The notes beneath the pieces were generated by a model. It made no database searches. It saw nothing but the letters and a program-made list of their open reading frames with translations, and was not told where the DNA came from. Below, one piece after another: positions 2,276 to 60,590 of a DNA stretch of 64,000 nt. The stretch spans positions 49,418,833-49,482,832 of the forward strand of contig NC_134851.1 of the NCBI RefSeq assembly GCF_965363235.1. The letters are read 5' to 3'. Positions within the stretch are counted from its first letter, which is position 1. Every line of letters starts with the position of its first letter. Made by a program: the position numbers and the translations under genes. The DNA is from Mytilus galloprovincialis. Lineage: Eukaryota > Mollusca > Bivalvia > Mytilida > Mytilidae.

Positions 2276-3370
2276 TTACCCCGATCGTTTGATTCCAACA
2301 TATCCAATTTAATACATTAGAATATCGATGATTTTCAAATTGAGTTGATTTTCCGTGACACTTATCAAGTAATATTAAATAAAGATGATTGTTTGATATG
2401 ATTGACACTTAAGCAACCATTAACATTAGTAGTCAGGCTGTCAATGTATGTCTTTTCTTAAAATCATACAGTTACACTAGTTATTGCTTCGATACAGTAT
2501 CATATCAAATTACATAGAAGTTACTGAACTTAGTTTTATGTTTTATAGATAATTAATGTTGAACGCAAGGAGTTGTGATGCATTAATTTATCATTTATTA
2601 TATTTTCAATACTAAAGTAATACAGTAAGTTAATAATGTCTTGTTAGTGGAAGTTGATACCTACAAGTATGGCATCTAAATATACAAAATGATGATGATA
2701 CTATTGATGATGATGATAATGAGGAGGGGGAGGAGGAGTGACTCAATGGAATTACAAAACCTACTAAAATCCACTAATTTTTCGTTCAGCAATCATTGGT
2801 AATCATTTGCTCATGCTGTGAATTGAAATTATAGTCACGATCGACAATTTCTAGAAGACAATTTTTTACACCAATGATCGTCTTATCTTTATTTTCACTG
2901 TCAATCATTACATGTCATGTAAGAGTTATCATATGAAGACCGTATATTGGTCTGTTTTTGTTAAATTGTATTTATTTTGCTATATGCTGAGATCATGGCA
3001 ATCATTCTACATCTTCCTATTTTCATAAGAACCAAGTGCCTCTCCAAGCAAGCTTCGATTATGCAACAACATATTTTTCTGTTTCATTTGTATAAACAAC
3101 TGCGTATTCTATCTTTTTAGGTAAGATGTAAAGAATTGTGATTTTATTTAATCAAAAATTGTGTCCAAGCAATTATCTGATAATACGAAACCAAATTATC
3201 AAAGGAACATTTAATGCGAACAACAATTACGATAAAACTTATAAACCACAATGAGCTAATTTATTTTAATGGTGAAGGTAGTCCCCTTAGTACTTTTCAT
3301 TAGATTTGTAATCGCTGTTTCGAAAAGAGGTAGCACATGTTATTTTATTATGAATGTACCACACTATATA
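2276..3370. other. AT-rich sequence without recognised genes
   Basis: There are no long open frames and no recognised motifs. It includes a short GAT-rich and GAGGAGG purine stretch at about 2688-2738. I see nothing else in it. Confidence 0.5.
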
Positions 3371-3374
3371 TGGC

Positions 3375-3790
3375 CTTGCAAATACGTTTTGATCCCTAAC
3401 ATCACTGAAGAGACATTTATTGTTGAAATTCGGATCTGGTGTACTAAAAAAATATTGACACCGTATGTTTGTGGCATAACATCGTGGCCACAAGTTAATT
3501 TTTTTCTGTTTAGTATTAAATTTATATTAAGATCCATTTTGTTACATCTTGTGATCAATTTTATTCGCCAATGGCAGCCAGCAGGGTTAAAGAACATCAG
3601 TTGTTCGACCTGTTAGTCAAATGCGTTTTGTTTAAATATACTTTTTCACTTTTTTGGTCTTTTGGAAAATGTTGTTTGTGCTGTTTTTAGACCCTTCTAC
3701 AACGAAATTTTTTTTACATGCACACGTATAAAAATTGCGGGTTTTATCGAATGCAATCATAGGTTTGAACGTAGTTTTCAATTTAGACTC

Positions 3791-3795
<5 letters not shown>
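3375..3795 (-). repeat. Single reverse copy of the 550-bp tandem repeat found at 15872-17332
   Basis: Read on the minus strand, this matches one unit of the array at 15872-17332. Matching landmarks are TTGTGGCATAACATCG, GTTACATCTTGTGATCAATT, the CCAATGGCAGCC region, GACCTGTTAGTCAAATGCG and GACCCTTCTACAACGAAATT. The open frame at 3269-3616 spans this repeat and is not a gene: its reading is only partly kept in the other copies. Confidence 0.8.

Positions 3796-3840
<45 letters not shown>
3794..3840. repeat. (TA)n microsatellite
   Basis: About 23 uninterrupted TA units directly abut the repeat copy at 3375-3795. The homologous edge of the array at 15842-15871 also carries a short TA-rich tract, so the microsatellite appears associated with the end of this repeat family. 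Confidence 0.95.
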
Positions 3841-3841
<1 letters not shown>

Positions 3842-3844
<3 letters not shown>

Positions 3845-4497
3845 TTTTTTCTACATTGATTAACATTCACGTAAAACGCTGGTTTAGCCTACAGAATACT
3901 CGATAAAATGTTTGAAAACCAAATGAAATATTAAGGTGAAGAGCACGGATGAACCTAAAATCAAATGAATTTAAGTCTTAAAAAAGGTAATGTTTATTTT
4001 GAAAACATCTCAAGAGTCTTGATAAATAATTAAGTCACGTACTGTCTTTCTAAAACATGTTCAGGTCAACCCACTGCAGTAATTCTGAGCTATTTCCTCG
4101 CAATAAATTCAGTATGATTTAGTTGCTTTAAAGACAAATGCAACGTAATGCTGATGTTAACAATTAAATTGCAGTTAATCTCAATAACCATAAAATAATT
4201 TGGAAAATAAGAAGCAATAAGTCGCACAAATTGAATACATAAATGCATCAAATAGCGAACGAACATTTCTCACACTAGTGCATTTATTCAATGTGTAAAG
4301 CTCTTATCACTGTGTGTGTGAGTTTTTTTTTTTTTTTGTTTTTTTTTTTAAAGACAAGACGTTTTATATGAATGGGATGAACAGTTATGATCACAGTATA
4401 TGAAACTAAAATTACAAAGAAGCATCTGTAAACTGAATAAAGCAAATGAAAGGTCAAGGAAATTGAACATATCTTACTAAAAACATCGATATAAAAA
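3842..4497. other. AT-rich sequence without recognised genes
   Basis: Non-coding AT-rich DNA with a T-rich stretch near 4324-4350. The minus-strand open frame across 4284-4562 runs through that homopolymer (a lysine-rich tract) and has no recognisable domain, so I do not call it a gene. Confidence 0.5.
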
Positions 4498-5149
4498 GTT
4501 GGAATAATACGTAATAGAAATATGACCTTACTGTGCCAAGTATGCCTCAATTTAGATGTCAAAATTTAAAGATACTTTATTCTTTACGTAAAGCAGAGGA
4601 AAAACACTAATATAAATGCAATACACTGAAAAAATAAAAAAAAAATAAAACAGTATAGTACCGATTGTTTACTAACATATTACCACATATGAGAAAAGCT
4701 ACATCTGATACGTCAATGTGTCTGGGTTAAGATGGTAGGTTAAGCATTGTAAATTCTCTTATTAAATTATGATATAAGAAGAAGTACAGAAAGTTGATAA
4801 TTAAGATACCTGACACGGGAAATATCTTGTCAAGAACATGAACTACGTGACATTTCTTAAATGTATTGAATGATCAGTGCTTATTGTGTCTTTTCTTGTT
4901 TTTAATTAAAATTACGTCTAAACAATTGTATTTTACAAAGAAACTAGTTATCAGAGGAATAGTTGATCAAAATAACGTAAACATCTATAAACGTCCATGT
5001 ATTATGTTCTATTCTTTACCAAACGCATTAAAATATAAGTCTTTTGACCTTATCATTCATTGGACGATGACGATAAACTAGTGCAACGATAACAATTATG
5101 GTAACACGTTGCTTCTTATTCAGTTCTAAGATGAAATGTACAGTACCAA

Positions 5150-5790
5150 TTGGATTTCATGTGTAGTATATTGCTGTTAAGAAGTCACAAACACATCAAC
5201 TATAACAGGAAAACAAAGGAACAACATAAACACTAAGTGCAACAAAAACAAACGCCAATGCAACACATATTGAAACAAACTATTTGACAACAACTACCAT
5301 ATGATTTACTTGGTAAAGGACATTAAAACAATGGTGAGTTTAATCTGCTTTTTTTAATTCTATCAAGCAAACTTCAAATTTTGCTTGTCAAAATGTTTAC
5401 ATCCAAACATTTTTTATTCCTCCCCTTTAACTTTATAACTCAAAACGTGACTTTCTCTTTATCCTTCAATTGGTAATACTCTTTATTTGTTTATTCAGTT
5501 CCCTCCTTTAATAGTGCTGGTCATAAAACTACCAACATCATAACATCAACCTACCATTGTTTTCTAAATGATGTCCTGTACCAAGTCAGGAATACTGCCG
5601 TTGCTTTTAAATAATTCGTTTCTATGCATTTTCGTTGTTTTCATGTGTTTCCCTCGGTTTAAATTGTAAATAAAATTGAGAATGGAAATGGGAGTGTGTC
5701 AAAGATACAACAACCTAGATTTGTTTTTCTTAATCGATTTATGACTTTTCTACAGCGATATAACACTGTTGCCTTTAAATACAGAATAAT
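5150..5790. mobile_element. Foldback element, copy 2
   Basis: Duplicate of the inverted-repeat structure at 675-1347. The left arm carries AACAAACTATTTGACAAC (near 5274) and ACTTGGTAAAGGACATT. The right arm carries CCTGTACCAAGTCAGGAA (near 5575) and ends near ACACTGTTGCC. The right arm is interrupted by a short retroelement-derived insertion at 5671-5716. Confidence 0.55.
5671..5716 (-). mobile_element. Severely 5'-truncated retroelement 3' end
   Basis: Read on the minus strand this ends with CCATTTCCATTCTCAATTTT, the same 3' terminus as the retroelement at 59577-61228 and the copies at 47002-47404 and 50796-50990. The corresponding place in duplication copy 1 (near 1275-1285) lacks it. It is an insertion of only about 46 bp that keeps the exact 3' end, as expected of target-primed reverse transcription with 5' truncation. 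Confidence 0.7.
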
Positions 5791-5876
5791 TTATCCGTTA
5801 TTTAAAATCATGCCAACCTTCTGTTTAACCATTGCGAAAGATACTGAAAATCAATTATAAGTCTTCATTTGCTAGA

Positions 5877-6083
5877 TGAAAAGTAAAATCACAAAAATAC
5901 TGAATTCAGAGGAAAATCAATTCGGAAAGTCCATAATCACATGGCAAAATCAAATAACAAAACGCATCAAAAACGAATGGACAAGAACTGTCATATTCCT
6001 GACTTGGTACAGGCATTTTCAAATGTAGAAAATGGTGGATTGAACCTGGTTTTATAGCTAGCTTAACATCTCACTTGTATGAT
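5877..6083 (-). mobile_element. Dispersed repeat inserted in duplication copy 2
   Basis: Copy 1 reads continuously through CTAGATAATGTAGCTC near 1444. Copy 2 is interrupted between GCTAGATGA and GATATAGCTC by about 205 bp. The insert contains CATATTCCTGACTTGGTACA and AACGAATGGACAAG. A diverged copy in the opposite orientation lies at about 59265-59400, and a weak copy at about 51650-51800. No coding potential. Confidence 0.65.
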
Positions 6084-6419
6084 ATAGCTCGATATCAATC
6101 CTATTAGAAACATCTTCATGTCTTTTACTGGTTTGACTTGTCATTCGCTTCTGTATTATAACGTTGTCACATTAATTTGTTTTCTTAATCGATGTAAGCG
6201 ATTTAAACTTTGGTAAATAACTGTTGCCTAACTTATGCAATATTTCCTCTTTGACATTAATGAATCAATATGTCTATTAACGACTGCAATGTTTACGTTT
6301 ATCAGAGGAAGTTGACCTAGGTTAGAGGACAGGATGTAACCTTTTCTAACTTTTTTTGTATATTCTCGACAACTAGTTCCGTATTGATGTTCATTGCTTC
6401 CACGTAACATTACACTAAT

Positions 6420-7875
6420 GCTTACAAATTATCAGCATATCAACTGACCCATTGATGAAAAACGAAAATATCTGCAATTTCACAGACTAAACTTAGAACT
6501 TTGACATTGTCGAAGTTTGTTCAAATTGATTACACACTGAGAAGGACCATTGCTGTAAACACACAAAAAATATATGTATATGTACATACCCAAACTACTT
6601 TATCATGGAACAAAAATTAAAAAAGTATAAAAACTGACCAAAATTTGTCTGTGTCTTCCTAGCTTCCGTGTACTGTTATATATTTTAGTTATGAGGCATA
6701 TTAAACATAAAGTTGAAATACGTAATAATAAAACTTTGAAAATTTATTTCAACACTAGTTTCCGTATCACAGTTTATCACAGTATGTCAAACTATTTGAA
6801 TGGAGTGCCCATAATAAATATGATATTGCCAAAACAGGCGCCTGGCATTCTACATTAATTGCCTTGAATCTTTGTTGTGTATATGTTGTGTTGAATTTAT
6901 TTGTTTGTCTGTTGGTCTTCCTCTTTCTTAATTACACGTGGCGTAGTTTTTTACTTGTAAGTTTGAATGTCCATCTGGGGTGCGCTATGTTGGCGAGTTC
7001 CAGACGATCGGAGTGCACGGAATCAACCGGAAGTTCAATGAAACAAGACAGAACTGTGCTCTGAACAAGTTCCAAGTGTGCAGAAAAAATAGTAGAGTAG
7101 GTGCTAACAGAATTCAAAATGGCGGAGACGGGAACTGAAAGATAATGATACAATAAACTTTAGATTTCAGTGAAATAAAAAGTACGAATTGGCTATCTGT
7201 TCAATCAAAGATTTGTATAGTACGATTATACAAATCATTGGTTAGATGTATTTCAAGGTATTTGACCATATAAGCATTATTTTTTAGGGAAATATGCAAT
7301 AAAACTCTCTGTTTTTTTAAGAATAACATTTTATAGTGGCCGTCTGATGTCTTTTTCTTATGATGATAATCGTGACAACTTCGAAGTCAGTCTTTTTATT
7401 TGGACACTAAAAAATGTTAGTTCGGAAAGGCCAAAAAGATTCACCCTACGGAAAAGTGATGTCAGTTGCAATTATGTCTTGCCACTCAAAAATACAAATT
7501 ATTTATTAACACTTCTTTTTTTTATTATTATTATTATTAGAAATCAAGTGAAATAAAATAAAAGATTAAACGAACACAATAAGAAACTCAATCTACAATG
7601 ACTTGTTCACTTCATTTTGTTTATTAATATATATACTAGCAGGCCGAGTTTAATATGATCCGAGTTTTCGATATGCCGATTTTGTTCTTTTAGGCCAAGT
7701 TTACCAGCAGTGAGATATATCCGGTTCCAATTCGTTTGATTGACGTCTTGATTCAGAACAGACATGACCTTATAGAACACGCCAACCGAGCGCATCCCTG
7801 GTAACTTTCGCCTCTCTTTTAAGAGGCATGTGTGCTTTGTTTTATTTAGCTTATAGATAATAAATGCACACATCT
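6420..7875. other. Sequence present only in duplication copy 2
   Basis: No counterpart in copy 1 and no recognisable protein. The stretch 6970-7140 is locally less AT-rich and holds an ETS-like ACCGGAAGT and a YY1-like CAAAATGGCGGAG, but the ATG in the latter opens only an 8-codon frame. The remainder is AT-rich, with a short (TTA)n run near 7522-7540. Confidence 0.4.
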
Positions 7876-18700: not shown

Positions 18701-19257
18701 TATCCCCATAGAGTATGATATGACTAATTGCTCCTTTAATAATTGCTATAATTTTTATTTTGACTGTTCATATATTCGTGTATTATTACTTAAAATCGAA
18801 AAAAAGGCAAAATTTTTTTTGTAAATTGATGAAGGCACGTTCGTCATAGTGACGATACGTGTAAAACAAACTGCTAAATGATATAATTGATTTTTTTTTT
18901 TATTAAACACTAATAACAAATCCGTTCGTGAAAAAAAAACACATTAAAAATTATTGGTCAAGAAAGAAATAACTTAAGAACAAACACAAGATAAATACAC
19001 ACTGAAGATAAACACATACACAAGATAAACACACACACAAGATAAACACACCTATCAATACCAGATATTTTCAAGATCAAAACAGCTAAACAAATGTAAA
19101 CAACAAACCACTAATTCAAATTATTTGAATAAAAAAATTTACCAAAGTTATATACAAAACTAAAAGTTTCAAAAACAAAGCAACATGATCAATGCAGTAA
19201 AGAAACGTTGATGACACTATGCATTCGAAAACAAAAACAAAAGATTTATACTGCTTA
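18701..19257. other. AT-rich sequence with a short minisatellite
   Basis: At about 18985-19052 the motif ACAAGATAAACACACAC is imperfectly repeated about four times. Otherwise nothing is recognised before the satellite array begins. Confidence 0.5.
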
Positions 19258-20584
19258 AATAAACTCATCATAGATACCAGGACTAAATTTTATATATACG
19301 ACATACGTGCGTTTCGTCTACAAAAGAATCATCAGTGACGCTCGAATCCAAAAAAGTTTAAAACGCCAAAAAAAGTACGGAGTTGAACAGCATTGAGGAC
19401 CAAAATTCCTAAAAGTTTTGCCAAATACAGCTAAGGTAATCTATGCCTGAGGAAAAAGCCTTTGTATTTCAAAAAATTCAAAATTTTGTAAACAGTTAAT
19501 TTATAAATTTAACAATATCAATGATAATTCATGTCAGCACAAACAGTGCTGACTACTGGGCTTGTGATACCCTCAGGGAAATAACTCTCCACCAACAGTG
19601 GCATCGACCCAGTGGTTGTAAATACACTCATCATAGATACTAGGACTAAATTTTATATATACGCCAGACGCGTTTTTGGTCTACAAAAGTCTCGTCAGTG
19701 ACGCTCGAATCCAAAAAAGTTAAAAAGGCCAATTAAAGTACGAAGTTAAAGAGCATTGAGGACCAAAATTCCTAAAAGTTTTGCCAAATACAGCTAAGGT
19801 AATCTATTCCTGAGGTAGAAAAGCCTTAGTATTTCAAAAAATTCAAAATTTTGTAAACAGTTAATTTGTAAATATAACAATATCAATGATAATTCATGTC
19901 AGCAAAACAGTGCTGACTACTGGGCTTGTGATACCCTCGGGGAAATGAATCTTAACCAGCAGCGGCATCGACTCAGTGGTTGCAAATAAACTCATCATAG
20001 ATACCAGGACTAAATTTTATATATACTCCAGACGCGCGTTTCGTCTACAAAAGACTCATCAGTGACGCTCGAATTCAAAAAAGTTAAAAAGCCAAATAAA
20101 GTACGAAGTTGAAGAGCATTGAGGACCAAAATTCTTAAAAGTTTGCCAAATACAGCTAAGGTAATCTATGCCTGATGTAGAAAAGCCTAAGTATTTCCAA
20201 AAATTCTAAATTTTGTAAACAGTTAATGTATTAATATAACAATATCAATGATAATTCATGTCAGCACAAGCAGTGCTGACTGTTGGGCTTGTGATACCCT
20301 CGGGGAAGTAAATCTCCAATAGCATTGGCATCGACCCAGTATTTGTAAATAAACTCATCATAGATACCAGGACTAAATTTTATATATATACGCCAGACGC
20401 GCGTTTCGTCTACAAAAGTCTCGTCAGTGACGCTCGAATCCAAAAAAGTTAAAAAGGCCAATTAAAGTACGAAGTTGAAGAGCATTGAGGACCAAAATTC
20501 TTAAAAGTTTGCCAAATACAGCTAAGGTAATATATGCCTGATGTAGAAAAGCCTAAGTATTTCCAAAAATTCTAAATTTTGTAA
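19258..20584 (+). repeat. Satellite-like array, left part (period about 365 bp)
   Basis: ACTCATCATAGATACCAGGA or a near variant recurs at about 19262, 19628, 19990 and 20355. Each unit carries the core CAGACGCGCGTTTCGTCTAC (with small variants), TCAGTGACGCTCGAAT, GAGCATTGAGGACCAAAATT and a perfect short hairpin, GTCAGCAC...GTGCTGAC. The array is interrupted at 20584 by the outer transposon and continues at 36209. A minus-strand open frame (LDSSVTDETFVDET) recurs in two units but covers only part of the repeat and has no known function. Confidence 0.95.
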
Positions 20585-23605: not shown

Positions 23606-24545
23606 ATACAAGACTAAAATACCTAGTATTATCAAATGAATTATAACAATTGTTAATAGTTGTCAGACTTTTGTTATCAAAAAGCAGCTACTGTACATGT
23701 GTATAATCAAGATGTACACATGATCACTGGTGTCAGATGTAAACAAGAGTGACTGTGCAAATGCTGAAATGTCATCTCTGCTTTGCCTACATGTATGAAG
23801 GTTTTACTACATGTACAAGTATCACATAAACTTTCAATTTTCATTAACCTTTGAAAATGAAGTTGCAGTCAAATTAACCATGCCAGACAGATGATGTACA
23901 CCCTACAAACTGACATTCCATACCCATGATACCCAAAATTTAGTGATTTAAACTGTCTGTGAAATAGACTTAACATTCATAACATCCAAACCATGAAAAC
24001 TAACTTATGAATATCCAATAATATGCCAAAAATAGTGATCCTATACATGTCATGCATGTACATGTAGTTTATACTGTAGCATCTGAGAAACATTTGGAAA
24101 TAGATCAATCCACAAAAACTAAGCATTGTTCAATGAACCATGTAACTGAAGTGACCTTAATCACTGATCCATGAAATGAAGTCAGGATCAGGCCAACCCT
24201 GCCTGACAGACACTGAGACATGTACACCTTTCAAAATACCATAACAATTAATCCAGTAACTCAATTAATATACATACGTTATACATTTAAGACTTCAAGT
24301 GTATTTCACTGTGACTGTTCAAACAGTAATATTTTTTTGTAAACAGTTACATGTACATGTAGTGTACCATGAAAACTAGGTGAAGTGCAATGAACAAATC
24401 AATAACAGAAACTTCATAACATTTTAAAGGAAGTATCCAGGCATTTCAGCTTCTAAAATGTATCTGGTGAAGCTTAAAAATACAAAACGGTACGCTGTAG
24501 CCACTGCCAGATTGTAATACATATTTCTTGGCTTGCATGCATGTA
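23606..24545. other. Interior of outer element up to the inner insertion
   Basis: AT-rich with many ACATGTA motifs and no recognisable genes. TA at 24544-24545 is the left copy of the target duplication of the inner element. Confidence 0.5.
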
Positions 24546-24591
24546 CAGTACGGGTAGGGACTTATTTTTATGGATGTCTTAATCCGTCTAG
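24546..24591 (+). repeat. Left terminal inverted repeat of inner element
   Basis: 46 bp pairing with 30958-31003. Mismatches fall at repeat positions 7, 30 and 32. The preceding TA is the target-site duplication. Confidence 0.92.
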
Positions 24592-26139
24592 TCGGATATG
24601 AATAATCGGACATTTTTATGGTAGGTAGTATGGTCATTAATCAACAGATCCAGGTGTGATGGTAATATACTTTTCCTTTCATCTTAATCCGTGCTACTAG
24701 AATTACGGTTCACTGATTTCAGAATTAGGTTACCTGTAATTTTAACCACTCAGTCACTTTATTGATTATTTAAGTTCTACATCGTTTTTGACATAAAATA
24801 TTTTTACAGGTGAAGTACTGGAGAACATTTTGTTTTAATAAAAATAGCGCATTTCTTTTATTTAACGGTTTTTATATTGCAACTGCTATATATTTTCTTT
24901 GTTTTTTTCTCAAAATTATTTTTATTTGTTGATTTGGGTTTTTTTTGTTTGTATCTTTTTTTTTATATGTTTGCATAAAAAATTTAAATATATTTTTATT
25001 CTAGAAGGTTATTTTTGTTTGACTGATTTATTTCCCATGTCATCCCATTGATTAGCAGAATTATTTGCGTACGTTTTAGTTTGACCCGGTAAATGCAAAA
25101 TATTGCAAAGTAATGCAATTCCTCACATTTAAATAATTTAACGGTGCCGTATTGACTCTTAATTCATAATATTAATTTACGCACAATCCATGTATACTTG
25201 TATGTTAAATCTAAAAAAATATTTGCCTTGAAAAGACAATTCCATGATGCATATATTTTTAATTCACAGTGTGTCCACGTGGTTAAACTTTAACTTGACC
25301 TCACTCACAATATTGAATGCTAAAAATAGACATATTAATACAGATCGATTTTGTCCCCTGCACAAGATATTTATATGGCGGGAAATATCGTAACAGTAAA
25401 CCCAGGTGACCTTACTGAACGACCGTGGGAAAATCATTCATGATTAAATTTGATGTGGAATGATTGACAGTATTGTGCGGTCTCTGAGGCTCTTGATCGA
25501 GCTCCATTAACAATTGATTTACGAGATTAGAAATTTAATCCATTTACATTCATGTAGCTGTAGTCTTCTTTAACTATTTTATGTTTATATTTATCAGTCA
25601 TTTCCCGTATTTCCATTTAAATAATATATTTGGAGATCTGCTTTGAAGTTCGGAATAAACACGGCGTACGTTATATATATTGTATTAAAAAAAAAGATTG
25701 TTTCAAACAGATTAACGGGAAATATACATTGATACTTGTATAGTTTGACGTTTCTTTAATACTAGTAGTCAAGTTGTGAATTTTCCTTCTTTTTTTTGTG
25801 TGTCTGCCGGCGTAAGGTTGATGGTATAGTATTACTGAATAGAACGCAAATAATAACTCAAGAAGATTACGAATCAAGACCCAATATGACAATTTACAAT
25901 GTATTTGAATATGGAATAGACGATCTGATTTTTTTTGTTTCTATGTCGTAATTTTCTGTTTTTTTGTCGTCGGTAGAAATGCAAATATTCTATTTAAATA
26001 ATTGAAGAACAAGAATGGAACAAGTGAATATGAGATTTAATTCATTAATAAAACAAAATGTATGGCATGTAATGATGATGATATATTACACAGTTTAAAC
26101 ATTTTATGATTTAATAATGTCACACATTTTTACACGTTT
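24592..26139. other. Inner element, 3' side of the BEN gene
   Basis: Non-coding. A minus-strand ATTAAA at 26110-26115 lies about 25 bp past the BEN stop and could serve as its polyadenylation signal. A somewhat less AT-rich island at about 25390-25510 (CCCAGGTGACC, GCGGTCTCTGAGGCTC) has no assigned role. The rest is very AT-rich. Confidence 0.5.
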
Positions 26140-27399
26140 TTAACACTTCCTGGTGGCTGGTTGGACTGGTCGACGAAGATACTGGTTCAACTTCTCAACG
26201 ACTAAAGCATGATAGGCTGACTCTGTGTTGACTGATGGGAAGAGTGCAGTGACATACCTCTTAATCACATTCTTTCTGTTGTCTTCTAATGGCCTTTTGC
26301 TAAGTTTACCACCGCCCCTGTACGAATAGTGGATACGTAGTTGATCTGAGGTGAATAATTCCGGGAAAAAGTGCTTTAGCAATAAAACCCCAAACGATCC
26401 AGGGTTTGTTCCACAGTTGGAATACTTGCTGAAGTCATCTTCTGTTAGACGCATGTGCTCGGGAATGTCATTGAACAAATGCATAGGCATGACTATGCGT
26501 TGCATAATTGGCTGAGGTTGAGGCGAGTCTGGTAACGATGATGTAGGTGTAAGTGGCAAATCTGGCAGAGGTTGGGGAATTCTCGGCGTTGTGGGTGTAG
26601 CTGGAGTAGTTGGTAGTCTGATTGGAGCGAGGATTGGAGTTATTGGTAAAGGCGTAAGATGGGCAGTTCTCTGCTTTGTAGCTAGCTCTTTTATAATATT
26701 GCCTTGCTCTTTAATAATATTGCCTTGCTCTTTAATTATATTGCCTTGGTTTATCATTAGTCTTTCCATCTCGGCTATTCTGGTGTTGGAGAGTTGCATC
26801 TGTTTTTCAATAGCTTGAAGAGACTGCTGTATTGAAAAAGCAGGTGGGTCCTTGTTGGTTGGTGTTGTTTGAGTAGTAGCTGCTTTACACACTGGTGGCG
26901 GAGTTGCTGGAGTAGTTGGTGAAGGTGGTGTTGGAGCCAAGAGATGAGGTGGAAGTTCCGGCGAAACTGACGGCGACCTGTACTGATACGGGTCGCTGGT
27001 CCCCTCTCCTGTGCTCAGCATGACAGCAAGTTGTTTGACTCTTTTAACCTTAGGTGCACGACGAATCACCCTTTTTCTTTTGCGTATAGTATACTCTGTA
27101 TCTGGTTGCGAGTCAGGTGAAGAAGCTGCTTTAGCTGGCGAATCTGGTGATGATAGTGGCGATGACGGAGCAACTGCATGCTCAGTTTCTTTCTGTTTCA
27201 TAAGGATGTAATCACCCGTGTCTAATATCTCAGCTGTTTCTGGGTTGTCGGAGCTAGTGCCATAAATGACTGGGTACCGCTCGCCGATGCGGACACGGCC
27301 TTCTGTAACAATCTTTATTCTAGGACATGTATAGATAGTGTCATCATCATACTTTACAAGAAAGTGACTGAATTCTCGTGTAGCAGCTCTGATAGCCAT
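26140..27399 (-). CDS. BEN-domain protein encoded by the transposon
   Basis: The 419-aa product is complete, with an ATG in good context (A at -3, G at +4). Residues 9-75 resemble a small Tudor/SH3-like fold (FLVKYDDD, YPVIYG, AEILDTGDYI). Residues 76-104 are Ser/Pro-rich. Residues 105-123 form a basic NLS-like patch (RKRKRVIRRAPKVKR). Residues 140-185 are Pro/Thr-rich. Residues 188-243 form a coiled coil containing three tandem QGNIIKE heptads. A second Pro/Thr linker follows, then a C-terminal BEN domain at about 318-409 with TNPGSFGVLLLKHFFPELF and RPLEDNRKNVIKRYV. BEN domains bind DNA and chromatin factors and often act in repression. The gene lies inside the TIRs and points away from the transposase, so I infer an accessory transposition or silencing factor. 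A captured host gene is the alternative. Confidence 0.88.
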   Translation of the reverse strand: MAIRAATREFSHFLVKYDDDTIYTCPRIKIVTEGRVRIGERYPVIYGTSSDNPETAEILDTGDYILMKQKETEHAVAPSSPLSSPDSPAKAASSPDSQPDTEYTIRKRKRVIRRAPKVKRVKQLAVMLSTGEGTSDPYQYRSPSVSPELPPHLLAPTPPSPTTPATPPPVCKAATTQTTPTNKDPPAFSIQQSLQAIEKQMQLSNTRIAEMERLMINQGNIIKEQGNIIKEQGNIIKELATKQRTAHLTPLPITPILAPIRLPTTPATPTTPRIPQPLPDLPLTPTSSLPDSPQPQPIMQRIVMPMHLFNDIPEHMRLTEDDFSKYSNCGTNPGSFGVLLLKHFFPELFTSDQLRIHYSYRGGGKLSKRPLEDNRKNVIKRYVTALFPSVNTESAYHALVVEKLNQYLRRPVQPATRKC

Positions 27400-28531
27400 A
27401 CTGATTATAATGATTAATGAAAAAATATAGTTATATTTATATTAAATTATTATAAATCTTATTAATGAAAACAGCTCAAGTAAAATAAACAGTCTTTGAG
27501 GAAAAAATAAACAATCTTTGAAATAAAAACATTCTTTGAAGTCAGAATAATATTATGAGTTCATTTCAGGACATCAAACAATCGCACAGCTTGTGTGAAT
27601 TTCCTTTGATATAATTATACTTTTATTCAATACTTAATTTCCAATTAAATTTCAAAAGTTGATTATTAATTAATAATTATTTAAGTATTTTTTATTTTAG
27701 GTCAATATTCGTAACACCTCATTTAATAACTCATATATGGAAATTGTTTCATTTTATTGTCGAAGTAGGTAAATTGCTAATAATTTTCAGCCTTTGATAT
27801 ACGCCAGTGACAAAACTTATGTAATGTATTTATGGGGGTCTAAATGGAGGTCCTTTGGTTTAATTTTTAATTCCATTAAATTTGTATTCATTTTCTCTAT
27901 TCTTTAAATTTTTTGTCCATTATTCTTTATTCTTTATATTTAAGGACCTCATAATTCTCAGAATATCTTTATATTTATTTCTTTTTTTGTTTTTCCCCCG
28001 TTTTTATTTTAATATATATATATTTATAAATTAATTAGATAAGAAAGATACTTTCTATGTATATTTATAAATTATACATAGAAAGTATCTTTCTTATCTT
28101 TTAAGTTAAGATGATGGATAATGAATATCTTAATGATCTGAAATTAATATGATCAATTAAGAGTGAAAACAATATAGATTTATGAGTAAAATATCTACAT
28201 CCACGCATTATAGTTTATTAATTTATTTAAAGTATATTTAGTTGTTTTGTTGTGTATCCGTTTTTTATGCATCTTTAATTGATATGAAATATTCTTTTAC
28301 AAAAGTCGTATGGGGCTAGTGTCAGTAACACACGATTTGAAGTTCCAACTTTCTTTCTCACGATTAATTTGACATGTGTATTAATGTAACCAGATGATGG
28401 TCTACAGGTGTTCACCCAGACAAGTCGACTCCTGGTCATTTCCCGTGCAATACACATGCCATGTTAGGGGATGCATTTAAATAGCATTTGTAAATTTAAC
28501 TTATCAGTATAGTTCGATATCTTCACATACC
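27400..28531. promoter_or_regulatory. Shared upstream region of the two divergent transposon genes
   Basis: 1,132 bp separate the two start codons, so both promoters must lie here or start within it. It is very AT-rich and includes pyrimidine runs around 27893-27945 (ATTCTTTATTCTTTATATTT). It also holds a perfect 27-bp hairpin at 28037-28099. I cannot place transcription starts by eye; divergent sharing of control elements is inferred from geometry only. Confidence 0.55.
28037..28099. repeat. Perfect 27-bp inverted repeat with 9-nt loop
   Basis: Arms 28037-28063 and 28073-28099 are exact reverse complements (AGATAAGAAAGATACTTTCT at the start of the left arm), with the loop TTTATAAAT between them. 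It sits 433 bp before the transposase start and 638 bp before the BEN start on the opposite strand. In so AT-rich a tract, a mismatch-free 27-bp palindrome suggests a recent inverted duplication or a maintained binding site or hairpin. Confidence 0.95.
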
Positions 28532-29677
28532 ATGCCGAAGTTTAAGCTTACACATCAAGACAACCTAGAAATCATCGCTTTGTATAGACAGAGCTGGCCA
28601 GTTTATGCCATTGTAAATAAGCTAGCCGCCAGAAGCATAGATGTTACCTGGGGTACCGTTAAACATGTCATTAAAAGATACCAAAGTGGCAAGATAGGCT
28701 ACGACAATTTGAGCAAGGAAGAAGAAAAATTACCAACTTTCCAATATATCACTGATCATGATGTCAACTTTGTAAAGAATGCTTTGGCTAAAAAACCTAC
28801 TCAAACGTCTACCGACATTCAGCGTCTTTTAGCAGACAAGGGTACACACACCAGCAAATCAACTGTCAAAAAAGTCATTAAAGCAGCCGGTTATACAGCT
28901 TCCTCACCTAGATATGGACAGATGGTTCGAGAACCTAACAAGTTGAAACGGGTTCTGTTTTCTAAGGCGGCCATTGCCGACAACGATAACTTTGACAATA
29001 TAATCTTCACTGACGAATGTTCCGTGCAACTGCACGATAACAAGGTTATCATCTACCGAGAAAAAGACTCCGTTGCTCCAGTTCTACCTAAACCTAAGCA
29101 CCCACTGAAGGTACACGTTTGGGCTGGTATAAGTCGTCGGGGGACCACAAGTATTCTGATATTTGAAAACATCATGACATCAGACTTCTATATCAACTCG
29201 ATACTGGTGACAGGCCTAATACCATTCATCAACCGATTATACCCTGACACTCACCGATTTCAGCAGGATAATGACCCTAAGCATACTGCAAATGCAACAA
29301 AAGACTTTATGAGGCAGCACAATATTAACTGGTGGGATGTTTGGCCAGCAGAGAGTCCCGATTTTAACCCAATAGAGATGGTGTGGAGCATGATGAAGTC
29401 TAGATTGTCCAAAAAAGAACCAAGAACAAAAGAAGATCTCATCAATGGCATCAAGTCTGTTTGGAGAGAAGATATGACCATAAACATCTGTAACAATTTT
29501 ATCGACCATATCTTCAAAGTACTACCGATAGCAGTTCAAGTAGACGGGCGAGCTACGGGAGATCTACCCAAGAAGATATTCCCAGAGAGATCCAGTGGCA
29601 AGTCTCTCAAGTATTTTGATGACAAGCTGAAAACACCAGAGTACCAACTGAAAGTCGTGGGCATGAAGCTGAAATGA
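28532..29677 (+). CDS. Tc1/mariner-type transposase (DD35E)
   Basis: This 381-aa protein is intact. It would cut the element at its TIRs and insert it at TA. The N-terminal half holds two helix-turn-helix units: residues 5-50 (TWGTVKHVIKRY at 39-50) and about 75-120 (TSTDIQRLL, SKSTVKKVIKAAG). The catalytic core follows: D161 in IIFTDECSV, VWAGIS at 196-201, D246 in QQDNDPKHT, and E282 in SPDFNPIEMVW. Thirty-five residues lie between D246 and E282 by my count, one more than in Tc1 itself (34). The C-terminal 90 residues are basic and longer than in many Tc1 proteins. The start ATG has A at -3, and homology begins at once. It lies within the 24546-31003 TIRs and is divergent from the BEN gene. 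AATAAA occurs at 29948-29953. Confidence 0.95.
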   Translation: MPKFKLTHQDNLEIIALYRQSWPVYAIVNKLAARSIDVTWGTVKHVIKRYQSGKIGYDNLSKEEEKLPTFQYITDHDVNFVKNALAKKPTQTSTDIQRLLADKGTHTSKSTVKKVIKAAGYTASSPRYGQMVREPNKLKRVLFSKAAIADNDNFDNIIFTDECSVQLHDNKVIIYREKDSVAPVLPKPKHPLKVHVWAGISRRGTTSILIFENIMTSDFYINSILVTGLIPFINRLYPDTHRFQQDNDPKHTANATKDFMRQHNINWWDVWPAESPDFNPIEMVWSMMKSRLSKKEPRTKEDLINGIKSVWREDMTINICNNFIDHIFKVLPIAVQVDGRATGDLPKKIFPERSSGKSLKYFDDKLKTPEYQLKVVGMKLK

Positions 29678-30957
29678 AGATGAATGCAAGATTACATCAA
29701 TTCAAAACAGTCCTTTTAAGGGCTACTTATATTGTACGAAAAGAGTCTAACAATTGTTGTTTAATACATATCAAGTACCAATTTTATTTTATTAATTCTC
29801 ATATCCACGATCATGTCTTTATTCGGACACCTCTTTTTAAGTTAATTAAGTTCGGAAATACCCATCAGCATGAAATTTAGTTTAAATGAATAATTCAAAT
29901 ACATTTTTTTTTAAATCCGCTAATCATGATTAATTTTAATTCCAACAAATAAACATCAAAATTAAAAACATTCGTGTATTGATTGGCACAATTCTTAAAA
30001 ATTGATTTAAAAAAAGATTCACGTGTCAGCAAAATTGTTATTTCCATTACATGTAAATTTAGTAAAGTTTGTTTAATTTTTTTATAAATATTAATGTTCA
30101 CGGCTAAAAAGATATTGTAATAAATAAAATAATTGTTTAAATAGCAAGCACGCCTGATCTGGCTGACCAAAATGTTTAACTTTCGAGTAATGATTGACAG
30201 GTATGAACTTTGATAAATAGATGTGGAGGCTCCGGCGGGGAACGTAATGTCGAATGGAAAATGATAGTTTAATTAATTTGTTTGTTTATAAACTTTAGAA
30301 TACTACAATCAGCTTTTTAAACTTTTATATAAATACTAGAATCCGAAATATGTTCAGGGCTTTATAAATATTGTTATAAAAAGGTAATTGTTTTAAAGGT
30401 TGACGGAAAATAAGTTTAATAGTAAGTAAGCACGCGGGATCTGGTTTTAACATGCGGGTATGGTCATTGATAAATAGATGTGGAGGCTCCGGCGGGGAAC
30501 GTATTAATGTCGAAAGGAAAATGATAGTTTAAGTAATTTGATACTGCAATAAACTTTTAAAACTATAATACGGGATCAAGTTTATTTTTGATTGATGGCT
30601 CAACATTTTTTATGAAAACTTCCATTGAAAATCGTCCTGGTTTTTATTATGTTGAATAATATGAAATATTTACGATTAGCAATACATTGTTAAAAATCGT
30701 ATTTTTTCCATTTGTATAACAACTTCACATACATGTACATGTAAAAGTTATATATCTTATTCAATTTTCATAAGTTTATTGAAGTTTTATTCAATATTTA
30801 ACATTTATTTATCCTCTATTAATAATAAAATATATGTACAGGTAAAATTCAATTCTTATCAAGGTGGGACATATTTACGACCCTCCACTGATATTGCACA
30901 GGTAATATCACAGCAGGTGTTTATTACACAGGGACTACTGTCCGACTAGTCTGACAT
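29678..30957. other. Inner element, 3' side of the transposase
   Basis: Non-coding AT-rich sequence containing the duplicated GC-rich motif at 30150-30530. Open frames here (for example 29895-30170 on minus) show no domain. Confidence 0.5.
30150..30530 (+). repeat. Direct duplication with a GC-rich core
   Basis: TGATAAATAGATGTGGAGGC, continuing into TCCGGCGGGGAACGTA, occurs near 30210 and again near 30469. It is followed in both by AATGTCGAA(T/A)GGAAAATG and TAGTTTAA. Upstream of each are AAGCACGC and GATCTGG. The repeat distance is about 259 bp. The core stands out sharply in base composition from the AT-rich surroundings. Confidence 0.9.
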
Positions 30958-31003
30958 CTAGACGGATTAAGGCTTCCATAAAAATAAGTCCCTACCTGTA
31001 CTG
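30958..31003 (-). repeat. Right terminal inverted repeat of inner element
   Basis: 46 bp, reverse complement of 24546-24591 with three mismatches. It is followed by TA at 31004-31005. Confidence 0.92.
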
Positions 31004-31005
31004 TA

Positions 31006-34000
31006 CTTCAACTTTTGTTGCAGGAGGGATAATAAAATTATACTTTAATGTACGTGCATGGTTTATTTGTTTCAAAAACCATGAACACTTGGCCACTCAC
31101 ATGACTAATCATGCTAATTAAGATTTTTATTTAATTCTAATTCAGACTTTAATAATTTAAGTACAGCAAGCAGTCATTTGACTCTAAACAATTGACACGG
31201 ACTGCACGAGACCCTCATAGTTGGTTAAGATCTTTTTACACACCCTGGACATGCTGGCGGTAGTTAACAATTGCAATGCCAACATAAACTTCAGATGTGA
31301 TATACATGTACTGTTTTGTTAATTTCACTGAAACTAGAAATTCACATTATCCATATTGTTATTATATTAAAATGACTGATTATCGACTAATTAAAAGTAT
31401 TCATGAATTCAGATATGATGCACTATTATTAGTAGTATTCACTGAAACTATGCATTTTCATTATTCCAAATTGCTATTTCAAATGAATAGTTATCCTGGG
31501 TATTCTTGGAATTCAGAAATAATGTACATGTATGATTGCACTTTTAATATTCACTGCAACTACGAAATTTTGTTATTCCAAATTCACAATTGATCATGAT
31601 AATCCAAGGTAATTAGTCCTCCAGTAACGTGGTCCTCCTTTAATACAATTTGTAATTTTCCTATTTGTACAAGGCACAATTTTCTTCTTGTCCAATTTAA
31701 TCAGAACATCACATTATCATCATGGAATAATGCTGCACGCCATATTCATAATTTCCAAAAACAATAGATACCTAGCATTAAATAATGAATTAATCCATTG
31801 TTTCACAATTTGCAGCTATACAGCGACTCAGTGACATCTATATTTTCTATGCATCAAAGTGCACATGTACTAGCAGGTGTCATATTCTATTAAAGTGGGA
31901 ATCATGGTCAAACCAATACATATTCAGTATGATTCTACAAAATAAAATATACATTTAGACTCAAGTACAGTAAATGTTTAACTAATAATAAATATATAAT
32001 ACTACATGTATATACATTGTGCAATAATAAGAAAGTTAATTACAATAACTGTATTTACCTAGATAAAACTAGCACTTCTCATTTGATTGACCAAAAAATT
32101 CTAGCACTAATACAATTCTATTTTCAAGTCACTATTAACAAGAAAAATAAATCTTTTAAGGGGGTCTAAATTCTATATAGTGTTGTCTTTTTTCCTGCAT
32201 TAATGATTTGTTAAGTGTGATTGTGTACTTTCATTGAAGGGTTACTGTCTCATTGAGGCTCACACCATACTTTTTTTCATCAATTCTTTAAAGTCAGACA
32301 TCATGGACATAGTTATTCCTCTCTAAAACACAACAGGTTATTTCTTTTGTTTATTTTAATTATGTTTATGATTTAATATGAAATATATTGATACTACAAA
32401 CATGACAAAGAAAAGTTTAAGGAACGAAAAAATAAAATAAATAAATGCCCTGTTACTATATACATGTAGATGATATTGACTTTACCTTTGTCCAGTGCAT
32501 ATAATGAATAAACCTTTGTGATGTAAAAATATTGTTCCAAGACTTAACCATCCCAGTTAATGTTTTAAATCCTTGAGTTTAATAATTTTTACATCTTTTG
32601 TGTTACCCTGAATACTTTTTACTTATTCATTTGTTATAACAGCTTGCATTAAATAATGCTTTGCAGCTCACTTTTTTATTTAATTTAGTTATTTACCCAA
32701 TTTTATTTTAATAAATCAATATTCAGATTACTTTTAAAATTTGCATTTTAATATCCAAAATAATATATATCCTGCTGTTTCATATTTTTCTTAAATTATA
32801 ATTTGTTTTGAAAAAGTTATCAAAATTTTGAAGAGGACAATTTTAATCATGATAATTTGTGAACATTATTATAAAATTGTATCATTATACCAATGACAGA
32901 TTAAATATCATCCCCCAGGGCAATAAACTATTGTGTCTTAATTTGTATATTAGCTAGATCATGTATATAAGAATTTCTGATTATTACCTATCGCATATCC
33001 AGTGTTAACATCCTGATTATTACCTATTTTAATGTCACATTTGCATGGTCATATTCAGTAAATACAAATATTTTAATTGTTAATTTTGAATTTGAATTAA
33101 AAAAAATTGTTTTAGACTAAATTAGTAGATACAACACATACAATGCAGTTAACACAGTAAATTTTATGAGAACTTACTGGATAATACATACTATATCTAT
33201 AAAAAATATTTTGAGCTTCATAAAATACTTTAAAAAAGTTTATACCATGTTAACATAAAAAAATATGCATACAGATAGATTTTTTTGTTATGTTTTCCTG
33301 ACATATTGAATGTTTACATAAAATAATTATCATGATTATGTAAAAAATGCAAAAAATCTGCAGTCGTATGTGAATGCACATGATCAAAGGAGATGTGGGA
33401 TATATCAATGATGCATCAACCCAACAGTTTAATAGGCAACAATAAAGTAATCAAAACACAATTGAATGCGTGTCGAAAAATATATATGACTTATGATTAG
33501 AAGGTCCTTAATCATTGCGGAATAAATATAATGACCATTGAATGTTACTACTTGTAAGTTAGATAACATGTATGGCACAAATGAATTTTGAAAAACAATG
33601 CTAACAGGGCACAATTTATATAAAAATTTCACATGAAAATACATAGTTTGGGTTCAAAGTATTAACAAATTATAGTGATTTAATATAAATTCTATGTTAA
33701 ATCTAAAAAGAATAAAATTATGATGCTAGCTTTGCTCTTTTAATATGTGTTTTTTAAACAATGTAGTACATGATAAAACAATTACTAATTGAATTAGCAC
33801 AATTTGTTTAATCAACTGTGTTTAAATGGCAACTGTTTATGACTCTGTGCCTTGTTTCAGGAACATTAATTTAATAATATTGTTTTATTTTGATGATTAA
33901 TGCTATTTTAAACCATTTTTAAAATGTTTATTCACTTTCAATGCCTGGCATATGCATGCTATTATCAAATATATTAATGTTTTGTTGTCCATGATTTGAG

Positions 34001-36163: not shown

Positions 36164-36208
36164 AACGACTGTTACTGGTATGGACAGTTGTTTTTTCGTC
36201 CAGTAGTG
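36164..36208 (-). repeat. Right terminal inverted repeat of the 15.6-kb element
   Basis: It ends TTTTTTCGTCCAGTAGTG, the reverse complement of the left end apart from two bases. TAA follows at 36209-36211. Confidence 0.92.
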
Positions 36209-37238
36209 TAAACAGTTAATGTATTAATATAACAATATCAATGATAATTCATGTCAGCACAAGCAGTGCTGACTGTTGGGCTTGTGATACCCTCGGGGAA
36301 GTAAATCTCCAATAGCATTGGCATCGACCCAGTATTTATAAATAAACTCATCATAGACACCAGGACTAAATTTTATATATATACACCAGACGCGCGTTTC
36401 GTCTACAAAAGTCTCGTCAGTGACGCTCGAATCCAAAAAAGTTAAAAAGGCCAATTAAAGTACGAAGTTAAAAAGCATTGAGGACCAAAATTCCTAAAAG
36501 TTTTGCCAAATACAGCTAAGGTAATCTATTCCATGTATTCCTGAGGTAGAAAAGCCTTAGTATTTCAAAAAATTCAAAATTTTGTAAACAGTTAATTTGT
36601 AAATATAACAGTATCAATGATAATTCATGTCAGCACAAACAGTGCTGAGTACTGGGCTTGTGATACCCTCGGGGAAATAAATCTTAACCAGCAGTGGCAT
36701 CGACCCAGTGGTTGCAAATAAACTCATCATAGATACCAGGACAAAATTGTATATATACGCCAGACGCGCGTTTCGTCTATAAAAGACTCATCAGTGACGC
36801 TCGAATTCAAAAAAGTTAAAAAGCCAAATAAAGTACGAAGTTGAAGAGCATTGAGGACCAAAATTCTTAAAAGTTTTGCCAAATACAGCTAAGGTAATCT
36901 ATGCCTGAGGTAGAAAAGCCTAAGTATTTCAAAAAATTCAAAATTTTGTAAACAGTTAATGTATTAATATAACAATATCAATGATAATTCATGTCAGCAC
37001 AAGCAGTGCTGACTGCTGGGCTTGTGATACCCTCGGGGAAATAAATCTCCAATAGCATTGGCATCGAACCAGTATTTGTAAATAAACTCATCATAGATAC
37101 CAGGACTAAATTTTATATATACGCCAGACGCGCGTTTCCTCTACAAAAGACTCATCAGTGACGCTCGAATCCAAAAAAGTTAATAAGGCCAAATAAAGTA
37201 CGAAGTTGTAGAGCATTGAGGACCAAAATTCTTAAAAG
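36209..37238 (+). repeat. Satellite-like array, right part (period about 365 bp)
   Basis: It resumes at TAAACAGTTAATGTATTAAT, exactly where the left part stopped. ACTCATCATAGA recurs near 36348, 36722 and 37085. The first unit here (36209-36560) is almost identical to the last full unit on the left (20216-20580), including the variants CAATAGCATTGGCATCG and AGTCTCGTCAGTG. The array ends abruptly after TTTTGCCAAAT at 37238. Confidence 0.93.
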
Positions 37239-38130
37239 TTTTGCCAAATTTATATATCTCAGAAACTAGTTATCTTTTATACTCTAAAAATAGCAACAGT
37301 TATTCATGTTTTATTGACGCAAACAAACTTCATATTGTTATAATGTGTTTGATAATTGCATGTCACACCAGACTTAATCAGCATTTTGTTGTTTATTATG
37401 ATTTGTTCAGCGGATCTATACATAGTAATGATTTGTTATGTGTCATTATGTAAAACACGTAGCAGGTCATAAATCAATGATTTACTGGTATTGCAACAAT
37501 ACATTGTGTGAAGGCTTCAAAAGATCTTAGAAGGACAATTTGCATATACAAAATATCTCCTCAATTCATTTTAATGAAGATTTGGAAATGAGATTTTGTT
37601 GAGAAATGTAAAGGGCATATCTCCCATGAGTTGCACGACACTTGTGATTCAGCAGGAAATAAAGTATCACATATATCATCATTTATTTTGAATGAAGACA
37701 TATGCTCTTATAAATTAAACATCCCAATGTATGATAGTCTAAGAGTCATTAAGCTATAACATTGCTGAAAATATAATCACTATTTGAATTATGCATTTCA
37801 GTGTTGGAATATCGTAAGTATCTCGTAAATTTTCAGTTTTTTAAAACCGGTTTAAAAGTATTTTTACAAGTTTGATACATGCAACGTGTAAATGATGTTT
37901 TTTTTATTTTTCTGTATTTCATTATACAGTATACGGACTTAATAAAACTGTGTTTCAGATTCATTACACTTATAAAAGAAATCTCTCTGTTGTCAGTGCA
38001 AATAACGATTGACGATATAATTTAATACATTATTTTTTTTATATATCACATATTCAATTGTATATCACTGTTAAATTCCGTGGTATTGTAGTGATGTTAT
38101 TTTATTTCAGTTTGGGGAAAATAAATCCAT
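37239..38130. other. AT-rich sequence without recognised genes
   Basis: Nothing recognised. The open frame at 37241-37453 has no domain I know. Confidence 0.5.
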
Positions 38131-59576: not shown

Positions 59577-60590
59577 ATGTTTCTCATTCTCATTAAGAAA
59601 AAATTCACACACCTAATTAAATGGGCATTCAAAAAATCAGAATGTGAATATATATGTTCAAACTCTTTTAGGTCATTTTTTAGTAGCAATAAACAAAAAA
59701 ACTATGTTAATTGGACATGCTTTGATACTATATATGCCCTTGAATTTTTACTAGATAACATTTTTGTTCGCTTTGGAGATTCCGTATATCGTCAGATTAT
59801 CGGAATTCCAATGGGGACTAACTGTGCACCACTTATTGCGGACCTGTTTTTGTATTGTTATGAGTTACAATTTATGACAAAAATAAGCAAAGACCCATCG
59901 AAACAACATCTGATAAACAAATTTAATAATACTTTTAGATATTTGGATGATATTTTGGCTCTCAATAATAACGACTTCAGTATGTATATTAATGAAATTT
60001 ATCCTGTTGAACTTACTTTAAATAAAGCTAATACTAACAATGACCACTGCCCTTTTCTCGATCTTGATATCTATATCACTAATGGAAAGCTGAATACTAA
60101 AATTTATGATAAAAGGGATGATTTTTCATTTCCTATCGTTAATTATCCGTTTTTAGATGGTGACGTTCCCTTGTCACCATCTTACGGTGTTTATATATCT
60201 CAACTTGTACGATTCGCTCGTGTATGTAACAATGTTTTCGATTTTAACGAGAGAAATTTATGTATTACTGAAAAATTATTACACCAGGGTTTTCGATATC
60301 ACAAACTAGTCAAAACATTTACTAAATTTTATCATCGGTATAAAGACATCATTCGTAAATATAGCTCAACATGCAGACTTCTAATACGTTCAGGTATTTC
60401 ACATCCAATTTTTTATGGTAATATTCTTTATAAAGCACAAAGGTGTCAGTATTCACCTCAGAAACTTACAAAACCATTGAATAGACTTATTAAGAAGGGA
60501 TATAATTACGATACTGTTGTCAAGTCATTAAAGATTGCATATTTTGGCGTTAATATTGAGTCACTGATAAGGTCTTTGCATCGGAACTAA
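59577..60590 (+). CDS. 5'-truncated reverse transcriptase of a retroelement
   Basis: The 337-aa product is the C-terminal part of a retroelement RT. Visible are motif B (QIIGIPMGTNCAP, residues 73-85), the catalytic YLDD box (122-125, in RYLDDIL) and a following PFLDLDIYI motif (159-167). A conserved C-terminal region has FDFNERNL, KTFTKFYHRY and SGISHPIFYGN. Motif A, which carries the first catalytic aspartate, is absent, and an in-frame stop lies about 36 bp before the ATG, so the copy is 5'-truncated and presumably inactive. The PFLD.. and ..YDKRDDF order recalls Penelope-like RTs, but I see no GIY-YIG endonuclease and do not assign a clade. The 3' region runs to 61228. A decayed relative is at 9912-10284. 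Confidence 0.85.
   Translation: MFLILIKKKFTHLIKWAFKKSECEYICSNSFRSFFSSNKQKNYVNWTCFDTIYALEFLLDNIFVRFGDSVYRQIIGIPMGTNCAPLIADLFLYCYELQFMTKISKDPSKQHLINKFNNTFRYLDDILALNNNDFSMYINEIYPVELTLNKANTNNDHCPFLDLDIYITNGKLNTKIYDKRDDFSFPIVNYPFLDGDVPLSPSYGVYISQLVRFARVCNNVFDFNERNLCITEKLLHQGFRYHKLVKTFTKFYHRYKDIIRKYSSTCRLLIRSGISHPIFYGNILYKAQRCQYSPQKLTKPLNRLIKKGYNYDTVVKSLKIAYFGVNIESLIRSLHRN

Follow-up and report, generated by a model that had tools for sequence, protein, structure and literature searches.

Gene-delivery tools have been built on Tc1/mariner elements, the textbook case of a transposon that encodes one protein; a single gene in 1.3–2.5 kb is typical of them, if not strictly defining. In ciliates, however, TBE elements, which belong to Tc1/mariner, encode three proteins under purifying selection (PMC4724952) and Tec elements carry three open reading frames (ORFs) (PMC7325037), and a paper of 2025, which treats the presence of accessory proteins in Tc1/mariner as a surprise, reports no change in DNA-binding profiles in Escherichia coli from those of TBE (PMC12242761); mobilization of PIF/Harbinger elements, in turn, needs both ORF1 and the transposase (PMC2836001). 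The analyses presented here concern a stretch of 64,000 nucleotides of the bivalve Mytilus galloprovincialis (NCBI RefSeq assembly GCF_965363235.1, contig NC_134851.1, positions 49,418,833 to 49,482,832 of the forward strand; hereafter the window) and, within it, an element at 24546–31003 with two genes in 6,458 bp, one for a Tc1/mariner-type transposase and one for a BEN-domain protein; a second complete element elsewhere in the genome (locus L010) has two genes in 6,094 bp. A first-pass annotation had taken the window element for a Tc1/mariner-type transposon with the BEN gene as a standing component, which pairing across a transposase clade and congruent trees bear out, and had supposed a two-gene family of such a kind to be undescribed, which is not supported in that form, given the three ORFs of the ciliate TBE and Tec elements (PMC4724952, PMC7325037). 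We propose, with a probability of roughly 0.85, that the element is a member of a two-gene, Tc1/mariner-type cut-and-paste lineage in which BEN has been kept with the transposase since before the subfamilies split and serves as a trans-acting cofactor. That the two genes form one mobile unit is, taken by itself, highly probable.

The pairing of the two genes was followed through the whole genome (1.38 Gb). Searches gave 75 matches for the BEN protein, 23 for the Pfam BEN domain and 114 for the transposase; in the last of these 108 of 445 candidates were scored, so that counts are lower bounds. By identity the transposase matches form two sets with none between, namely 71 rows at 40% or above, which merge into 51 loci and are called the clade here, and a further 43 at 32% or below (43 loci, the distant transposases). 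A BEN match lies within 6 kb of 24 of the 51 clade loci but of none of the 43 distant ones; under an even spread of BEN loci, the chance of such a neighbour is about 0.0006 for each locus. When a match of 500 nt or more is required of a clade locus the proportion becomes 17 of 28, and at 1,000 nt or more it becomes 13 of 16 (hand count), the three exceptions being a subfamily A copy with no BEN half (L024/L035), a subfamily C copy with BEN deleted (L033) and a family-E copy at C6:58.19 Mb. Eighteen of the 24 pairs are divergent (one of these, a fragment at C12:61.844 Mb, shares its BEN gene with an adjacent pair), four are convergent and two lie on the same strand; in divergent A-, B- and C-type pairs the genes are spaced about 0.5–1.1 kb apart. 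The genes co-occur across the transposase clade, BEN is absent beside the more distant transposases, and the trees of the two agree. A one-off capture, for which the first-pass annotation had proposed a check, is excluded by the 24 paired loci and by the second complete two-gene element, L010.

With the window element placed in subfamily A and L010 in subfamily B, the transposase tree joins A with B, then I, then C (support 0.83), and sets E and G (0.96) in a group of their own, near which F loosely falls (0.53); five distant transposases fall outside the clade, and the groups of the BEN-domain tree are compatible with this arrangement. Pairwise identities of transposase and BEN over eight rows (two from F) correlate at 0.79, a value reached by 9 of 40,320 relabelings. 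Both trees are built on short domains, include some pieces of broken genes and have modest support at deep nodes. Between the window element and B copies the proportion of nonsynonymous differences (pN) is 0.30–0.33 for BEN and 0.12 for the transposase, against proportions of synonymous differences (pS) of 0.72–0.74 and 0.78–0.79, respectively, ratios that are rough since synonymous change is near saturation; the nonsynonymous rate (dN) between A and B is 0.39–0.44 for BEN and 0.135 for the transposase, BEN being about three times faster. To judge from these comparisons, both genes are constrained in the long term, BEN less than the transposase. Subfamilies A, B, C and C′ have open BEN frames of 402–423 amino acids (aa), at identities as low as 32%. 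At closer range, the BEN genes of the window element and of L009 (also A) differ with a ratio of nonsynonymous to synonymous rates (dN/dS) of 0.23, and change at third codon positions (34/379, 0.090) exceeds that at first and second positions (26/756, 0.034; p 2e-4).

The window element arrived at its site as a whole. A query of 169 nt, made by joining 86 bp from the left flank, one TA included, to 83 bp from the right, had 40 listed matches (40 of 66 candidates scored), and all 40 span the join, at 92–99% identity; each of the six empty sites that were fetched aligns through a single TA, with no element and with a small alignment gap elsewhere. Since these matches run uninterrupted across the join, chance is excluded, and the element with both its genes was inserted as a unit, duplicating the TA, into one copy of a dispersed repeat; the best empty-site identity, 99%, suggests that this was recent. 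The joined flanks of L010 (182 nt) likewise have uninterrupted matches, the first 14 of 42 listed rows covering them nearly whole. A unit bounded by terminal inverted repeats (TIRs) and TA has therefore been inserted whole in subfamily A (window) and in subfamily B (L010), with both genes intact in each. The TA flanks of ten other TIR-bounded copies are not independent of these findings because TA belonged to the pattern by which ends were located. The dispersed repeat in which the window element sits was recognised from the flanks 24400–24545 and 31006–31200.

The coordinates of the element are collected in Table 1. Its inverted arms (24543–24591 and 30958–31006) are 94% complementary across 49 nt, and removal of the flanking GTA/TAC leaves TIRs of 46 bp with a TA at either side. 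Together with the single-TA empty sites this agrees with the TIRs, TA flanks and 6.46 kb length of the first-pass annotation, whose count of exactly two intact divergent genes also stands: apart from the BEN and transposase genes, no ATG-started ORF of at least 140 aa lies inside the element. The transposase, which had rightly been called an intact DDE enzyme, is a single frame with a DD35E triad that matches DDE_3 (E 4.8e-13) and the Tc3-type helix-turn-helix (HTH) family HTH_Tnp_Tc3_2 (E 1e-8) in Pfam and, by sequence, the Sleeping Beauty transposase in the PDB (E 2e-17). A DDE_3/Tc1-type transposase with HTH was likewise found in L010, L030 and L032, and the last D and the E are 34 apart in F but 35 in subfamilies A, B, C, G and I. 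A candidate shared promoter region separates the two start codons.

The BEN domain has its best sequence match among solved structures in BEND3 (E 9.2e-11 by sequence search, E 2.9e-18 with a seven-row profile). Seven BEN sequences align as a conserved N-terminal region (the start of which L009 does not have), a variable middle rich in Pro, Ser and Thr, and the BEN domain; the middle includes the basic stretch and, in A, also the short tandem repeat. Outside BEN, a Pfam search of the protein gave matches only at E 0.1 or worse; weak matches of the middle to DUF16 in Pfam and to DotF in the PDB were set aside as compositional. Of the complete BEN protein with nuclear localisation signal and coiled coil that had been annotated, the intact BEN-domain gene is confirmed and the basic stretch and tandem repeat are present, signal and coiled coil being putative.

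Table 1. Features of the two-gene element, in positions of the window
Feature	Position	Strand	Basis and remarks
Complete two-gene element, 6,458 bp	24546..31003		TIRs, TA flanks, uninterrupted sites elsewhere
TA target-site duplication, left	24544..24545		Sequence; one TA in 6 aligned empty sites
TA target-site duplication, right	31004..31005		Sequence; one TA in 6 aligned empty sites
Left TIR, 46 bp, starts CAGTAC	24546..24591	+	Inverted-repeat match; same start after TA also in subfamilies B, C, C′
Right TIR, 46 bp	30958..31003	-	Inverted-repeat match
Left subterminal sequence, akin to start of right repeats	24627..24649	+	In 4/4 short copies read
BEN-domain gene, 419 aa, single open frame	26140..27399	-	ORF, Pfam, PDB match; relatives
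BEN domain, aa 338-411	26167..26388	-	Pfam PF10523 E 1.2e-7; BEND3 in PDB
21-bp x3 tandem repeat, presumed coiled-coil segment	26685..26748	-	Repeat search
Basic stretch, possible nuclear localisation signal, aa 106-120	27040..27084	-	Read from sequence
Conserved N-terminal region, about aa 1-72	27184..27399	-	Alignment of subfamilies A, B, C, C′; without Pfam match
Region between two divergent start codons, 1.13 kb	27400..28531		Hairpin with 30-bp arms at 28037-28099
Transposase gene, 381 aa, DD35E (D161, D246, E282)	28532..29677	+	ORF, Pfam, PDB sequence match
Subterminal repeat copy 1	30200..30246	+	Diverged core once in each of 4 short copies read
Subterminal repeat copy 2	30457..30503	+	94% identical to copy 1

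Elsewhere in the window there are tandem arrays at 19256–20584 and 36207–37249, with units of 363 and 364 bp, and at 59577–60590 (+ strand) a 337-aa ORF with a YLDD motif that is putatively reverse transcriptase-like.

Subfamilies A, B, C and C′ share a terminal start, TA followed by CAGTAC; the TIRs measure 46 bp in A and 32–33 nt including TA in C, and the ends of B are identical over the first ten bases only. Besides the window element, A comprises L009 (right end present, BEN frame kept from roughly aa 32 onwards, no transposase match), L024/L035 (broken transposase and right end kept, BEN half gone) and degenerate copies on contig C11. Copies of the clade are crowded onto that chromosome-sized contig, which makes up about 6% of the assembly and has 18 of the 51 clade transposase loci and 17 of the 60 BEN loci, against 3 of the 43 distant transposase loci (hand count); many of these copies bear stops. 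In B, L010 is complete and its two ORFs are intact; L011, which has no right TIR, likewise keeps the two ORFs intact and is 99% identical to L010 over 4.76 kb. TIRs bound L012 and L014, neither of which matches the transposase, and L013, L016 and L017 are broken; a left boundary is common to seven B loci whose flanks look unrelated. L014 and L015 represent a B-family copy duplicated in tandem with its surroundings, about 6.26 kb apart and 99.7% identical. In C, L019 (5,634 bp) has BEN intact and the transposase broken, while in L033 (4,205 bp) the transposase frame has one stop and BEN is deleted relative to L019. L018 (C′, 3,734 bp) keeps its BEN ORF intact and shows no match to the transposase; TIR-bounded at 3222–6959 of its locus, it constitutes a BEN-only mobile unit.

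Families E, F, G and I carry the gene pair as well, convergently in E. The E copies (L029, L034, and those at C6:35.37, C6:58.19 and C12:0.09 Mb) have the pair tail to tail, except that no BEN match lies near C6:58.19, and the E transposase is interrupted by about 550 bp that look intron-like. Between L029 and L034 identity is 97.6% along about 8.3 kb and 97.8% along another 1.0 kb; because they are alike to the edges of the fetched sequence, the repeated unit must be longer, with its ends outside. A candidate inverted repeat of G was dropped, as a second copy is still 98% identical past it on the BEN side.

Searches of the genome with the element ends gave 40 rows for the left end (152 candidates) and 41 for the right (145 candidates). 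Among these listed ends 13 left/right pairs lie within 10 kb of each other: the window element at 6,458 bp, nine pairs of 1.2–2.7 kb, and three of 3.7, 4.8 and 6.2 kb. Out of the 40 listed left ends, that of the window element alone lies within 8 kb of a clade transposase or BEN locus from the lists. Four short copies (L025–L028), TIR-bounded and 2,371–2,717 bp long, keep the subterminal sequence of both ends, and none of the four matches either protein. These short copies are non-autonomous, and the mobilising proteins therefore act in trans. Likewise, no clade transposase or BEN locus from the lists is near the three longer A-type end pairs (C6:13179600-13185759, C8:78992590-78997412 and C1:81852128-81855827, of 6.2, 4.8 and 3.7 kb). 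When the A-type repeats (30200 and 30457) were sought in the tested B, C and C′ elements with up to five mismatches they were not found, and a subterminal motif conserved across subfamilies was accordingly dropped.

The BEN protein would most likely be an element-encoded, DNA-binding cofactor acting in trans. How it might do so we put forward tentatively, at somewhat under even odds: the C-terminal BEN domain would bind element DNA, in the subterminal region or at the ends, the central, presumed coiled coil would oligomerise the protein, and the conserved N-terminal region would contact the transposase or chromatin, so that the BEN protein might aid transposition much as the Myb-like protein of PIF/Harbinger does. 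The wider proposition, that there is an animal Tc1/mariner lineage of many subfamilies with BEN as a fixed second component that co-evolves with the transposase and is required for, or directs, transposition, we hold to be evenly balanced.

Several observations weigh against a BEN cofactor inherited with the transposase throughout the clade. Of the 51 clade loci, 27 are without a nearby BEN match, 16 of them being matched over fewer than 500 nt, and no clade transposase lies within 6 kb of 37 of the 60 merged BEN loci. TIR-bounded copies may miss either gene, with BEN only in L018, L012 and L014 (the last in two pieces) and the transposase only in L033. The ends of E, F, G and I were not found, the TACAGT pattern giving no pair in L029, L030, L031, L032 or L036, and the pairs of these families are thus candidate mobile units. 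In the BEN tree human BEND3 groups beside E/G (support 0.87), in trees that include broken-gene pieces, a placement that may leave room for more than one acquisition of BEN. CCACGC and CCAATTGG, the recognition sequences of BEND3 and of fly Insensitive, showed no enrichment in the five elements tested and speak for none of the mechanisms considered here. Finally, first and second positions of BEN in the window element and L009 (0.034) change no more slowly than non-coding DNA (64/1,643, 0.039; p 0.64), so that recent constraint on BEN is at best suggested by the sequences. The comparison of dN/dS between copies that the first-pass annotation had called for hence supports deep constraint on both genes and fails to extend it to recent BEN evolution measured against non-coding DNA. 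Two refuting conditions had also been named. Full copies with the same TIRs and no BEN could have told against the pairing; the four short copies read match neither protein, the single-gene L033 and L024/L035 are broken, and no intact single-gene element of the clade was seen among the copies read, the 3.7-, 4.8- and 6.2-kb pairs being unread. The other condition was an intron-bearing BEN gene at a conserved host site; the close relatives are ORFs without introns, several of them in TIR-bounded elements, and most of the 37 unpaired BEN loci are unexamined. In the motif counts only B and C′ had CAATTG, and only C and C′ had GTGAC, above the level of a simple base shuffle; because five motifs were tried on five elements, neither was used as evidence.

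Four other explanations have to be set beside the cofactor. That the element merely inserted beside or around a host BEN gene at a single locus might be entertained because BEN matches are many (60 merged loci), but it is refuted by aligned empty sites that have neither BEN nor transposase and by the count of 24/51 against 0/43, and its probability is negligible. A host BEN gene caught by the ancestral element could instead have hitch-hiked as a functionless passenger, as would be allowed by copies short of one gene (L018, L033) and by BEN first and second positions that change as fast as non-coding DNA in the sole A–A comparison; long open frames down to 32% identity, pN well under pS, co-occurrence and congruent trees are all unexpected of a passenger, which we regard as very unlikely. 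The cofactor reading stands despite the weaker recent constraint because it rests on co-occurrence and on deep constraint.

BEN could also be an autoregulator that binds the intergenic region and represses or times transcription of the transposase, outside the transposition complex. BEN proteins are reportedly chromatin or DNA-binding factors, the A-, B- and C-type pairs are divergent and closely spaced, a hairpin lies between the two genes of the window element, and L018 and L012 keep an intact BEN frame with no transposase match; yet a shared promoter is not universal, four family-E pairs being tail to tail, and no counted motif marks the intergenic region. We consider this role unlikely, though to be taken seriously. 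We further doubt, if less than the passenger, that BEN acts on the host and not on element DNA, countering silencing or steering insertion to certain chromatin: the threefold faster change of BEN than of transposase between A and B would be expected with a changing host target, but may only mirror the variable Pro/Ser/Thr-rich middle, and the location of both the window element and L010 in dispersed repeats amounts to two sites, which are uninformative on preference.

Placed beside the described systems, the window element shares with the Tc1 group (e.g. Sleeping Beauty) the DDE_3 catalytic D, D and E, the Tc3-type HTH, the TA target and the TIRs, and differs in having two genes in 6.46 kb. 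Host BEN proteins such as BEND3 are encoded by host genes outside transposons, and the element protein has one Pfam BEN match, whereas BEND3 carries four BEN domains. Scans of IMG/VR with the transposase and with the BEN alignment found no relative. TBE and Tec elements resemble the window element in combining a Tc1/mariner-type transposase with extra element-encoded proteins and TIRs (PMC4724952, PMC7325037); their hosts are ciliates and their partners others, a 22-kD protein and a zinc-finger/kinase protein in TBE and a set that includes a recombinase in Tec, none of which is seen in the window element, where the sole partner ORF of at least 140 aa is BEN. Among the titles and abstract openings listed for open-licence papers, the longer lists being covered in part, we met neither a BEN partner in a Tc1/mariner element nor a multi-gene Tc1/mariner element in animals. 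Were the wider proposition above true, two-component Tc1/mariner systems would for the first time be known from beyond the ciliates; BEN proteins would then form a class of transposon cofactor not described before, from which some host BEN genes may have come. The findings also raise the question of whether the host BEN proteins of animals are descended from, or ancestral to, transposon cofactors. A concrete protein pair with defined DNA ends is now on hand for testing what BEN contributes.

With PIF/Harbinger, lastly, the element has in common two element-encoded proteins and short non-autonomous copies moved in trans. PIF/Harbinger has a transposase of a different superfamily, a different target site and a Myb-like partner instead of BEN, and neither that transposase nor that partner appears here, where Pfam finds above its cut-off only DDE_3, HTH_Tnp_Tc3_2 and BEN. 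If a lineage retains a second protein, one that binds DNA, then Tc1/mariner can evolve two-component machinery in animals, in parallel to PIF/Harbinger.

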